Shown piece by piece: positions 28,563 through 36,055 of a DNA stretch of 64,000 nt. The DNA is from Bdellovibrio bacteriovorus str. Tiberius (GTDB lineage Bacteria; Bdellovibrionota; Bdellovibrionia; Bdellovibrionales; Bdellovibrionaceae), in assembly GCF_000317895.1 (NCBI RefSeq), contig NC_019567.1:496001-560000 (forward strand), in the 5' to 3' direction. Every line of letters begins with the position of its first letter. Positions within the stretch are counted from its first letter, which is position 1. The position numbers and the translations under genes are program-made. The notes under the pieces were generated by a model, which worked only from the letters and a program-made list of their open reading frames with translations, searched no databases and had not been told where the DNA came from.

Positions 28563-29308
28563 TGAAGATGATTTCTTCTTTCTCAGTTTTGGTTTTGATG
28601 GTGTTCACTGCAGGTTGCGCAACCATGCAGGATTTCATGGCGTCTTTGGACGGCCCGAAAGAGGCACCGGCGCTGAAGGATATCAACACGGCGCCAAGAT
28701 ATTCTGACAACCAGAACATGGGTGTGCCGACGGATCGTCAGTACAAACGCATGACGAAAAACCGCATGGAAGAAGAATCCGACCTGGGCGCCAATGCCGG
28801 TTCCACATGGGTGATGGAAGGCCAGGGGGCTTATCTGTTTGCGCAAAATAAAATGCGCAAAGAAGGTGACCTGTTGAATGTGACTTTGGATGGCCCGGCC
28901 AAAAAACAGGTCGACACCAAGGTGTCTGTGATCAAAAAACTTTTGAAGCAGCTTGAAGAGCAGCAGCAACAGCAGCTAAACAACTCTTTGGCGCAAAATG
29001 GGGATGAGGCATCCCGTGCTCCGGCGTCAGTTGAAGCCAAAAAGCCGGAACCTGCGAAGGTGGAAGAAAAGGATGACGGGGCCGCCGATGTGGCGAACAT
29101 CCCAACCCGTATCGTTGAAAAAATGGCCGATGGCAACTATCGCATCAAAGGTCAGCAGCCGTTCATGATCGGCAAGCGTGAATACAAAGTCATCGTGACG
29201 GGTTTGATCCGTCCGGAGGATTTTAATGATGCGGGCATCAACTCGGATAAACTTCTGGATCCACAGTACGATGTGGTTTCTTTAAGAAAGACAAAGAGCA
29301 ATGAATAA
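28559..29308 (+). CDS. flgH: Flagellar L-ring lipoprotein FlgH
   Basis: 249 residues. Outer-membrane L-ring protein through which the rod passes. Lipobox VFTAGC puts the lipidated Cys at residue 20. The family core is visible as GSTWVMEGQGAYLFAQNKMR, then KEGDLLNVTLDGPAKKQVDT, and the end VTGLIRPEDFNDAGINSDKL. Between these there is an unusual Gln run (EEQQQQQLNN) and Ala/Lys/Glu-rich linker not found in enteric FlgH. It overlaps flgA by 4 bases and flgI by 8, a tightly coupled operon. Confidence 0.93.
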   Translation: MMKMISSFSVLVLMVFTAGCATMQDFMASLDGPKEAPALKDINTAPRYSDNQNMGVPTDRQYKRMTKNRMEEESDLGANAGSTWVMEGQGAYLFAQNKMRKEGDLLNVTLDGPAKKQVDTKVSVIKKLLKQLEEQQQQQLNNSLAQNGDEASRAPASVEAKKPEPAKVEEKDDGAADVANIPTRIVEKMADGNYRIKGQQPFMIGKREYKVIVTGLIRPEDFNDAGINSDKLLDPQYDVVSLRKTKSNE

Positions 29309-30308
29309 AATCACAAACTTTCTGATTCTTTCCGCTGTCTTGTTTTTCTCTTTGATCGAGTCAGCCAATGCCGCTCGCCTGAAGGACATCGCCAGCATTC
29401 GTGGCGTGCGTGAAAATCAGTTGATTGGTTACGGTATCGTGGTCGGCCTTAAAGGCACCGGCGACGGTAAGAATGAATTTATGAGCAAGAGCATGGTGCG
29501 CATGCTGGACAAGCTGGGAATGAAACTGGACAACGTGGATTTCTCAAGCAAAAACGTGGCGGCGGTGATCGTGACAGCGACCATGCCGGCGTTCGGCAAA
29601 GCGGGCAACCCGATCGACATCACAGTCAGTGCGATCGGTGAGGCGTCTTCCTTGCAGGGGGGCACATTGTTGCAGACGCCTCTGCGTGCTGCCAATGAAC
29701 AGGTGTTTGCGGTGGCTCAGGGAAGTATCGTGATCGGTGGCGATGGCAAAGATTCGCACACCACTGCGGGCCGTATCCCGAATGGTGCAACGATTGAGCG
29801 TGATATGACAGCGGATTTTTCCTCCAGAAAAATGTACCGTCTGACGTTGATCAATCCGGATTTCACCACAGCGGCGCGCTCTATTCTGACGATCAATAAA
29901 GAGCTGGGTGGTCACTATGCTTCGGCAAAGGATTCCGGCACGATTGATATCATCACACCGTTTGCTTATGAAAATCGCGGTGTGGAGCTTCTGGCGACGA
30001 TTGAATCCATTGAGATCAATCCCGACATGAAAGCCCGTGTTGTTGTGAATGAAAAAACAGGAACGATTGTTATCGGTGACAAAGTGAAGATCTCACGCGT
30101 TGCTATCTCACACGGAGCACTGTCAGTGAAAGTGGGCGATGGCAAAAAAGGTGCGGAAGAAAAAGTGGCGGTTCTCGACAGTGGTGTCAGCGTCGGTGAA
30201 CTGGTCCAGGCACTTAACAAGCTGGGAGTCTCGCCTAAGGACCTGATTACAATACTTCAGTCCATAAAATCAGCTGGAGCTTTGCACGGGGAACTCGAAG
30301 TTTTATGA
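29301..30308 (+). CDS. flgI: Flagellar P-ring protein FlgI
   Basis: 335 residues with a signal peptide (ends near IESANAAR). It forms the periplasmic P ring embedded in peptidoglycan. Strong family signatures: RLKDIASIRGVRENQLIGYG, then IVVGLKGTGDGKNEFMSKSM; TATMPAFGKAGNPIDITVSA; LLQTPLRAANEQVFAVAQG; IGDKVKISRVAISHGALSV and the end LNKLGVSPKDLITILQSIKS. Slightly shorter than usual. It ends the flgA-H-I overlap chain; a 309-bp non-coding stretch follows before flgJ. Confidence 0.97.
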   Translation: MNKITNFLILSAVLFFSLIESANAARLKDIASIRGVRENQLIGYGIVVGLKGTGDGKNEFMSKSMVRMLDKLGMKLDNVDFSSKNVAAVIVTATMPAFGKAGNPIDITVSAIGEASSLQGGTLLQTPLRAANEQVFAVAQGSIVIGGDGKDSHTTAGRIPNGATIERDMTADFSSRKMYRLTLINPDFTTAARSILTINKELGGHYASAKDSGTIDIITPFAYENRGVELLATIESIEINPDMKARVVVNEKTGTIVIGDKVKISRVAISHGALSVKVGDGKKGAEEKVAVLDSGVSVGELVQALNKLGVSPKDLITILQSIKSAGALHGELEVL

Positions 30309-30345
30309 GATTTCTGTTTCAGAATGACACAGCATTTAATACAAT

Positions 30346-30600
30346 CAAAGTTATAGTTTCAGACACATGGACGTGTTTGAAACGCGGGGAGGGTGAGAAA
30401 GAGATCGCGAACCATGGAAGGTCAAGAGTCAAAAGTTTCTCGCAGGAAACAGGAGCAATAGGTCAGCAGAGATCACGGAGTGATCAACACGAGCCGAAGC
30501 TACACTCTCAGAATCGAGTGCAGGATGCACATGATTCTCCGACTCTAACTCCCCTTTTTTTCTCTTTCAAAAAAGGTACATCCGTACCTTTTTCTTTTTT
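30346..30600 (+). ncRNA. Candidate CsrA-binding RNA between flgI and flgJ
   Basis: The 309 bases between flgI and flgJ hold no convincing gene but strong RNA structure. Hairpin 1 (30356-30383) has 11-bp arms, one G-U pair and the loop AUGGAC; its ACATGGACGT at 30365-30374 is an exact match to the core CsrA consensus ACANGGANGU. Hairpin 2 (30471-30485) is GATCAC-GGA-GTGATC. Hairpin 3 (30518-30530) is GTGCA-GGA-TGCAC. A weaker ACC-ATGGAA-GGT is at 30411-30422, and further GGA triplets lie at 30388, 30445 and 30452. A terminator ends it at 30600. TACAAT at 30340-30345 could be a -10 box. It may be a CsrB-like sponge or the CsrA-controlled leader of flgJ. Limits are approximate. Confidence 0.45.
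30570..30600 (+). terminator. Rho-independent terminator before flgJ (GGTAC type)
   Basis: AAAAAGGTAC and GTACCTTTTT pair perfectly around ATCC and are followed by CTTTTTT. It separates the flgI-side transcript from flgJ, or acts as an attenuator in front of it. Confidence 0.8.
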
Positions 30601-30617
30601 GATCTAGGAGTCTCGCA

Positions 30618-31325
30618 ATGAGCGATGTGGGATCCGGCGGTTTTAAACCCATTGGCAATCGTATGATGGGGCGGCCTGAACAAAAGGCGCCTGAGCAGAA
30701 GCTGCGCGAAGTTTCTGACATGTACGAAAAACATTTCCTGCGGGAGATGATGAAAGCCATGCGTTCCACCGTCAAAGAAGGCGGCTTCATTCAGTCCAAT
30801 CAGGCTGAAAAAATTTTCCGTGAACAATTGGACGACCAGTATGTTGAAAAGTGGGGCGAACGCGGTGGTATCGGTTTGTCCAACATGATCTATGATCAGC
30901 TGATGAATAAATTCGGTGTGGCCATGGGTGTCCGTGCACCTGTCACAAAGCCTGTAGGACCTTTGGCTATGGATGAAAAAAGCAACCTGGCTTTGAAGCC
31001 ATTCCAGCATCCAGGAAAGAAGCAGGCCCTGTCTTACCGTATCGACACTGAATCAGCCCCTGGAGCGGCTTCCGAGGTGAAGGCCCCTTGGGACGGAGTG
31101 CTTCTTGGCAAACGCAGTCTGGCTGATGACCAGACCCTGGTCGAGATCGGTCACGACAATGGTCTAAAGAGCCAGATGGTTTTCAAAGGCGGACTGTCAA
31201 AAGTTTCGACAGGGGAAAAACTGCAAGCTGGCGACACCCTTGGCTTTTTAAGTCCAGAGGCGAAATCACTCTACTGGACCATCGAACCACAGAGTGAACC
31301 TAGACCAGAAACTGTCTCAGAATGA
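30618..31325 (+). CDS. flgJ: FlgJ-like rod-assembly protein with a degenerate M23-like C-terminal domain
   Basis: 235 residues. Residues ~25-100 match the FlgJ rod-capping domain (LREVSDMYEKHFLREMMKAM; REQLDDQYVEKWGERGGIGL). The enteric C-terminal glucosaminidase is absent. In its place, residues ~152-225 follow the M23/LytM beta-sheet pattern: VKAPWDGVLLGKR, TLVEIGHDNGLKSQMVF, LQAGDTLGFLSPEAKSLYWT. All metal and catalytic residues are lost: no HxGxD, no YAHL, and LYWTIE where active enzymes have HLHFE. It is therefore probably a structural or activator module. AGGAG lies seven bases before ATG. A terminator stands just upstream. Confidence 0.82.
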   Translation: MSDVGSGGFKPIGNRMMGRPEQKAPEQKLREVSDMYEKHFLREMMKAMRSTVKEGGFIQSNQAEKIFREQLDDQYVEKWGERGGIGLSNMIYDQLMNKFGVAMGVRAPVTKPVGPLAMDEKSNLALKPFQHPGKKQALSYRIDTESAPGAASEVKAPWDGVLLGKRSLADDQTLVEIGHDNGLKSQMVFKGGLSKVSTGEKLQAGDTLGFLSPEAKSLYWTIEPQSEPRPETVSE

Positions 31326-35034: not shown

Positions 35035-35262
35035 ATGCTGGTTCTCACACGGAAGTTGGGTGAAAGCATCGCTATCGATGACCACATCAAAATCAGAGTA
35101 GTTCAAATTAAAGGTAAACAGGTCCGTCTAGGCATCGAAGCGCCCAAAGATACCAAAATCCACCGTGAAGAAGTTTACGTTGCGATCCAGGACCAGAATC
35201 AGCAATCTGCTACCACAGATGCCGATAAAACACGCAATATCGCTAAGTTGTTGAAACCATAG
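35035..35262 (+). CDS. csrA: Carbon storage regulator CsrA
   Basis: 75 residues. A homodimeric RNA-binding protein that recognises GGA in hairpin loops and blocks or stabilises mRNAs. MLVLTRKLGESIAIDDHIKI is the family start, with the RNA-contacting VRLGIEAPKDTKIHREEVY (R44-type residue present) and a short variable tail. In flagellated bacteria outside the gammaproteobacteria it represses flagellin synthesis and is held by FliW. AAAGGAG is well spaced before ATG, and a sigma-28-like promoter precedes it. The partner gene fliW is 266 bases downstream. Confidence 0.97.
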   Translation: MLVLTRKLGESIAIDDHIKIRVVQIKGKQVRLGIEAPKDTKIHREEVYVAIQDQNQQSATTDADKTRNIAKLLKP

Positions 35263-35527: not shown

Positions 35528-36055
35528 ATGATCATTTCAACATCGAGATTCGGCCAAGTTGAGCTGAAACAAGAAGATGTTCTGACTTTCACCGAAGGCC
35601 TGTTGGGCTTCGCTGATTTGCGCAAGTTCGTCCTTCTTGACGATCCGAATGATGAAATCTTCGCGTGGTTGCAAAGCTGTGAAGCCCCTGCAATTGCATT
35701 CCCGGTACTTGAGCCTGAATTGTTTGCTCCTCAGTACAAAGCAACCCTGACCAAAGGTGATATGGAAGCTTTGAAACTGACGGCTCAGGACAAAGCTCGC
35801 TACTTCTCTATCGTGACTATTCCGGATGATCCTACTTTGATGACTGCGAACCTGAAAGCTCCAGTCGTTGTGAACATTGAAGCCCGTACGGCTCGTCAGT
35901 GTGTTCTTCAGGATAACAACCTGGCTATCCGCGAGCCTATCTTCACCAAGCTGCAACAGCGTGTGGTGCAGAATCCGGCTGTCGCAATCAAAAATCAATC
36001 CACCGGGATTGATGTGGCGACCAAGCTGCATGTTGTTCGCGACGCTGAACTTTAA
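35528..36055 (+). CDS. fliW: Flagellar assembly factor FliW
   Basis: 175 residues, slightly longer than B. subtilis FliW (~143). FliW binds CsrA to relieve its repression of flagellin, and is itself displaced by free flagellin, giving a three-part switch. Family pattern: FGQVELKQEDVLTFTEGLLG, then FADLRKFVLLDD, FAWLQSCEAPAIAFPVLEP, SIVTIPDDPTLMTANLKAPV and VLQDNNLAIREPIF. GGGAGG stands four bases before ATG. It ends at a two-way terminator shared with a leftward gene. Confidence 0.94.
   Translation: MIISTSRFGQVELKQEDVLTFTEGLLGFADLRKFVLLDDPNDEIFAWLQSCEAPAIAFPVLEPELFAPQYKATLTKGDMEALKLTAQDKARYFSIVTIPDDPTLMTANLKAPVVVNIEARTARQCVLQDNNLAIREPIFTKLQQRVVQNPAVAIKNQSTGIDVATKLHVVRDAEL

Follow-up and report, generated by a model that had tools for sequence, protein, structure and literature searches.

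The flgI-flgJ interval and its transcript

The window analysed here, that is, the whole stretch of 64,000 nucleotides from Bdellovibrio bacteriovorus str. Tiberius (NC_019567.1, positions 496,001 to 560,000), carries a run of flagellar genes in which flgI and flgJ are separated by the gene of a small RNA. The features of the region are the following, in window coordinates (flgM was also confirmed by Pfam in the window):

29301-30308 (+): flgI, stop codon at 30306-30308 (PF02119)
30305-30607 (+): open frame that begins on the flgI stop (ATGA) and crosses the RNA; a translated spacer is more probable than a conserved protein
30315-30331 (+): dyad resembling an operator, TGTTTC-N5-GACACA, overlying the -35 region
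30340-30345 (+): -10 element TACAAT just 5' of the mapped start (sequence and published start)
30351-30557 (+): APsRNA1, a 207-nt CsrA-sponge-like RNA (published HD100 coordinates, identical locus)
30555-30561 (+): conserved T run that forms the 3' end of the RNA and its terminator (alignment; published 3' end)
30570-30593 (+): second intrinsic terminator, found only in B. bacteriovorus-like strains
30618-31325 (+): flgJ, rod-binding domain (PF10135), with a weak M23 peptidase match
35035-35262 (+): csrA, the only copy in the genome (PF02599)
35528-36055 (+): fliW (PF02623)

A DNA search recovered the element in 41 of 60 relatives, in one of them at positions 499,333-499,641 of a genome that is identical to the window over the 213 bp around the RNA and that we take to be HD100. 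When the published coordinates of APsRNA1 of B. bacteriovorus HD100 were mapped onto the window, the RNA occupied 30351-30557 of the plus strand, its start falling just 3' of the -10 element and its end within the conserved T run. APsRNA1 was described by RNA-seq as a plus-strand RNA of 207 nt with a mapped start site (HD100 499,375-499,581), at an RPKM of 50,451 in the attack phase versus 3,181 in the growth phase, a 16-fold increase in the attack phase; no function was assigned to it, and no homologue was reported outside B. bacteriovorus (Karunker et al. 2013, Table 2, PMC3627812). The sequence-only reading of this DNA had proposed an undescribed Csr sponge RNA. A separate transcript with its own start was already in print, so the word "undescribed" had to be given up (PMC3627812), while the sponge part of the proposal gained from the retention of GGA hairpins among homologues. 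The transcript is thus a known one, and what is new is its character as a GGA-hairpin RNA family. A search of the open-licence literature gave no subsequent work on APsRNA1 and no paper tying Bdellovibrio to CsrA.

By the published RNA-seq coordinates, the RNA is a separate transcript with its own start and intrinsic terminator, as are sponges of the CsrB/RsmZ type. At its conserved 3' end, the T run comes after the CUCCCC strand of a long-range helix. The strong terminator that had been placed at around 30600 does exist (30570-30593), but it was discarded as the end of the RNA, since it is not conserved and the published end lies earlier, at 30557. A FliA promoter was also considered for APsRNA1 and dropped, as no FliA site is called for it in the published table (PMC3627812).

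The dyad over the -35 region, in the form TGTTTC-N5-GAMACA, was retained 5' of the RNA in most members of families f1 and f10, and it was also kept in genus g6, in which a long distance separates the RNA from flgI. Allowing at most one mismatch, TGTYTC-N5-GARACA gave 47 matches in the genome versus 18 for the reversed control. From these sequence comparisons, the dyad may be the site of a regulator that sets the levels of the RNA, and its matches seem to mark a putative regulon that includes the sRNA promoter. Inspection of the upstream stretch by eye revealed no GacA/UvrY palindrome (TGTAAG-N6-CTTACA). The matches to TGTYTC-N5-GARACA (loci L149-L178) were often intergenic, and many of them lay 5' of genes for exported proteins.

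GGA hairpins, covariation and distribution of the RNA

The fold of the RNA in the window comprises five hairpins and two long-range helices, listed here with their conservation among the 95 homologues of the structure test described below:

30356-30383 (+): SL1, 11-bp hairpin with loop AUGGAC, GGA at 30369-30371; GGA kept in 91/95, compensatory changes at 9/11 pairs
30411-30422 (+): SL2, ACC-AUGGAA-GGU, GGA at 30416-30418; GGA kept in 93/95, 97.5% of cells paired, near-invariant stem
30435-30450 (+): SLA, GUUUC-UCGCAG-GAAAC, GGA at 30445-30447 at the loop edge; GGA kept in 93/95, 94.2% of cells paired
30471-30485 (+): SL3, GAUCAC-GGA-GUGAUC, GGA at 30477-30479; GGA kept in 83/95, compensatory changes at 6/6 pairs
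30510-30538 (+): SL4, inner stem GUGCA-GGA-UGCAC at 30518-30530 and outer stem AGAAUC/GAUUCU; GGA kept in 94/95, 97.9% paired
30386-30391 with 30549-30554 (+): long-range helix GGGGAG/CUCCCC; 84% of cells paired
30426-30430 with 30541-30545 (+): long-range helix GAGUC/GACUC; 77% of cells paired

Three of these hairpins (SL1, SL3, and the inner stem of SL4) had been pointed out from the letters alone, with coordinates that proved correct throughout, together with a weaker fourth one that corresponds to SL2; the SL1 sequence (GTTTCAGACACATGGACGTGTTTGAAAC) has the core ACAUGGACGU, which is, as had been stated, an exact match to the CsrA consensus. SLA is a fifth GGA hairpin that was absent from that list. 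The 207-nt transcript contains 7 GGA in total, and its folding is stronger than that of dinucleotide shuffles (z = -4.3). Multiple loop-exposed GGA motifs are a mark of the sponge class, and three GGA-loop hairpins with stems of at least 5 bp within 207 nt, the strict count reached by the RNA, were found in 0.05% of dinucleotide shuffles (P 0.0005; shuffle mean 0.14). Chance hairpins were ruled out by these shuffles and by the conservation among homologues. The strict count was also reached by another 207-nt stretch, on the plus strand in the 11051 region of the window, which has three GGA-loop hairpins as well.

The structure test was carried out by scoring a 47-pair structure on 95 homologues, in an alignment that was fitted to the covariance model. 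In this set, 88.5% of the cells were paired and 615 were doubly changed, versus 191 in shuffles (0/500 shuffles), and sliding the partners by 1-3 columns lowered the pairing to 37-54%. An unfitted MAFFT alignment gave a similar picture (90.2% paired, 153 doubly changed cells versus 39, slid controls at most 47%), and RNAalifold, unaided, recovered SL1, SL2, SLA, SL3, and the inner SL4. The inner stem of SL4 illustrates these changes, appearing as GUGCA-GGA-UGCAC, GCGCA-GGA-UGCGC, GCACA-GGA-UGUGC, or GUACA-GGA-UGUAC, and the cores of SL1 were mostly ACAUGGAUGU, ACAUGGACGU, ACAUGGAAGU, or ACAGGAUGU, near the known CsrA consensus. The GGA of SL3 is the least strict, being UGA in a few species, and the nearly invariant stems of SL2 and SLA provide little covariation support. 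Even where the RNA of genus g3 has become scarcely recognizable, new stems still show GGA (UUCAUGGAUGAA, AUCACGGAUGAU, UCGCACGGACGCGA). Compensatory changes around a constant GGA, anticipated in the sequence-only reading, were found across the homologous regions, with hairpins and GGA loops retained. As judged from these alignments, the structure of the RNA is under selection, and GGA is the part of it that is retained.

A covariance model built from 37 relatives was then run on 141 genomes of the order, and it detected the element in 105 of them, belonging to 52 of 66 genera and to all ten families. Each of these 105 genomes had a single copy, and the search for extra copies elsewhere in the genome gave none. 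Outside the order, three genera of one sister family carry the RNA, and it was not found in the rest of the phylum. Among good genomes, 83 of the 93 flagellated ones had the RNA versus 0 of the 10 without flgI (Fisher 8e-9, with genomes that are not independent of each other). The ten good flagellated genomes missed by the search all belong to genus g3, and closer reading of this genus revealed a diverged copy with GGA hairpins still present at four loci (L132, L134, L135, and L137). At every locus where both neighbours could be checked, the RNA lies between flgI and flgJ. Its distribution in sequence searches indicates that this is an ancient RNA family conserved across the whole order.

Two further g3 loci, L136 and L138, have cleanly lost the RNA, with flgI and flgJ almost adjacent and with csrA and fliW kept, and they represent natural knock-outs. 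Many members of the genus (loci L006-L024) have in common a short element with GGACAGTCCTCGC, which is situated 5' of flgJ within about 200 nt past the RNA and is sometimes preceded by a GGACTCT/AGAGTCC hairpin; it had no Rfam match.

The partner that a sponge of this class calls for, csrA, was found in 132 of the 141 genomes and in 103/103 good ones, as a single copy in nearly all. The presence of csrA and fliW downstream, previously put at about 4.5-5 kb, was confirmed by Pfam at 4.4-5 kb 3' of the RNA in the window. FliW was encoded in 95 of the 103 good genomes; the sole good genome with the RNA but without a fliW match is a fragmented assembly, and reduced genomes lacking fliW had csrA and no RNA. 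The alignment of the window's CsrA with solved CsrA/RsmE proteins extends across the HREE segment, which contacts RNA, and the protein has a C-terminal tail like that of FliW-binding CsrA proteins, the part bound by FliW in Bacillus. A second, diverged copy of FliW was noticed on another contig of one member of the genus (G020:C2:79365-79736).

The retained GGA motifs could also belong to a structured RNA of the attack phase whose main role is a different one, either as a base-pairing sRNA or as the ligand of another protein, and which would use its GGA loops for that role. The segment 30386-30468 speaks for such a role, as its primary sequence is strongly conserved beyond the loops and beyond what the GGA hairpins alone require, and this leaves room for another possible partner or an antisense role. 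However, GGA is present in 5/5 hairpins, the core of SL1 is the CsrA consensus, and the RNA is present only where csrA and flagella are present, so we regard a different main role as improbable.

The open frame across the RNA and the link to flgJ

The frame overlapping the flgI stop (NTGA) was open through the whole RNA in 48 of 94 loci, while the two alternative frames were open in 3 and 2 loci. In the window, the flgI-stop frame passes both terminators. This frame often ends overlapping the flgJ start, and in some species, it is joined to flgJ. In the open loci of family f1, the distances from the flgI stop to the RNA differ by multiples of 3. In addition, a parsimony count over every aligned member of genus g1 gave 3 new stops in the flgI-stop frame versus 12.1 expected, compared with 19 versus 15.5 and 15 versus 10.9 in the other frames, and no sampled g1 member has a stop in the flgI-stop frame. 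Stop depletion was assessed on this count because a column-shuffle test is biased, as open sequences are preselected and linked columns are broken.

The open frame, the depletion of stops in that frame only, and the length differences in multiples of 3 are what could be expected from a protein gene between flgI and flgJ, or from an N-terminal extension of FlgJ, with the hairpins being incidental. Nevertheless, variable sites are evenly distributed over the codon positions of the frame (24, 30, and 25), which argues that conservation does not act on the peptide; no Pfam match was obtained for the frame, its start codon precedes the RNA's own start, and selection acts on base pairs and GGA. Moreover, hairpins and frame are offset differently from one lineage to another, and roughly half of the loci, whole families among them, lack the open frame, often because flgI ends in TAA or TAG immediately 5' of the RNA or because the RNA is more distant; hence, the frame is not essential for the role of the RNA. 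Protein coding as the main function was rejected on the equal variation of codon positions and the conservation of base pairs, and a protein gene with incidental hairpins appears highly improbable. We infer as the simplest account that translation is kept open across the RNA, sparing the operon mRNA from being cut at the sRNA terminator.

The main rival to sponge action, with which it is compatible, is action in cis: a CsrA-bound leader or attenuator of flgJ, through which the state of CsrA or FliW would gate the passage of transcription and translation into flgJ. On this view, the terminated leader would be what accumulates as the 207-nt RNA, with sponge activity as a possible side effect. 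The sequence-only reading had already offered this alternative, and the absolute synteny with flgJ at all loci checked fits it, as do a terminator that precedes flgJ and a stop-free frame that overlaps or fuses with flgJ in some loci; the invariant placement of the RNA ahead of flgJ is likewise compatible with action in cis. Against it, the separately mapped 207-nt RNA weakens the proposal, as the authors of the RNA-seq study removed signals joined to the downstream gene and still called a separate sRNA (PMC3627812). Besides this, the gap between the RNA and flgJ reaches 200-500 nt in many species, five GGA hairpins distant from the flgJ ribosome site exceed the needs of a leader, and the two g3 loci lacking the RNA still have flgI and flgJ. 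On balance, we consider a leader of flgJ an unlikely explanation.

A candidate CsrA sponge in a FliW lineage

The RNA resembles CsrB/CsrC and RsmX/RsmY/RsmZ of Gammaproteobacteria in having its own promoter, a terminator, and loop GGA on covarying stems, and its size is RsmZ-like. In contrast, it is unrelated to CsrB/RsmZ by sequence or covariance model, its host has FliW, its gene is nested in a flagellar operon and overlapped by an open frame, the dyad TGTTTC-N5-GACACA takes the place of a GacA box, and its GGA sites are 5-7 versus 22 in CsrB. The Rfam models CsrB, CsrC, PrrB_RsmZ, RsmX, RsmY, and TwoAYGGAY gave no match at gathering score, and looser cut-offs gave nothing relevant at E <= 10 for the window or at E <= 1 for six distant homologues. 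The Rfam motif TwoAYGGAY, which has two hairpins and is found in other lineages, shares with APsRNA1 its AYGGAY hairpin loops and a suspected CsrA ligand role. Another parallel is the flaA mRNA leader of Campylobacter jejuni, which antagonizes CsrA in a species with FliW and likewise has GGA stem-loops and a flagellar context, although it belongs to a CsrA-repressed mRNA and has two stem-loops, whereas APsRNA1 is a separate non-coding RNA with five (PMC4894983). From its resemblance to CsrB/RsmZ, the absence of Rfam matches and of the GacA palindrome, and its presence in a FliW lineage, APsRNA1 is probably a CsrB/RsmZ-like RNA of separate origin.

Our preferred reading is that APsRNA1 would be a small RNA that titrates CsrA, to which we assign a probability of roughly two in three; judged on sequence, this sponge reading is well supported by the comparative evidence. 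The five GGA hairpins would bind CsrA dimers, and the abundant RNA of the attack phase would draw CsrA off its mRNAs, among them those for flagellin and for further genes of motility or predation, on top of the effect of FliW. The strength of the titration would depend on CsrA levels, and the low number of GGA sites compared with CsrB speaks against the sponge reading. A flagellin leader elsewhere in the genome (L180; G000:C1:406119, ~1380-1500) appears to resemble CsrA-controlled flagellin leaders in its GGA hairpin, GAGUUUC-AAGGAUC-GAAACUC, and in the GGA that it carries at the ribosome site; this is a motif observation only, and the fold of this leader was no better than shuffles.

A more speculative extension, with the odds somewhat against it, is that translation would choose between two states of the same DNA. 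In the many lineages in which a start codon overlaps the flgI stop, ribosomes could continue from flgI through the RNA towards flgJ, and their passage on the polycistronic mRNA would melt the hairpins and the terminator. The sequence would thereby serve as a stop-free, translated flgI-flgJ spacer in the operon mRNA, and as an untranslated, terminated, folded CsrA sponge alongside FliW when transcribed from the regulated internal promoter.

Mimicry by sRNAs and FliW have been described as mutually exclusive curbs on CsrA (review, PMC7366521), and a combined action of FliW and sRNAs in any one species "remains to be determined" (review, PMC7652899). The RNA that was described in B. bacteriovorus only is seen here as an order-wide family with GGA hairpins (PMC3627812), and the co-presence of FliW and a candidate sponge throughout the order, including the genetically tractable B. 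bacteriovorus, makes their joint action directly testable. The overlapping stop-free frame suggests how a terminator-bearing sRNA gene can fit inside an operon. For the predator itself, the analysis provides a candidate function for an RNA that is abundant in the attack phase, and CsrA may be linked to the switch between hunting and growth.
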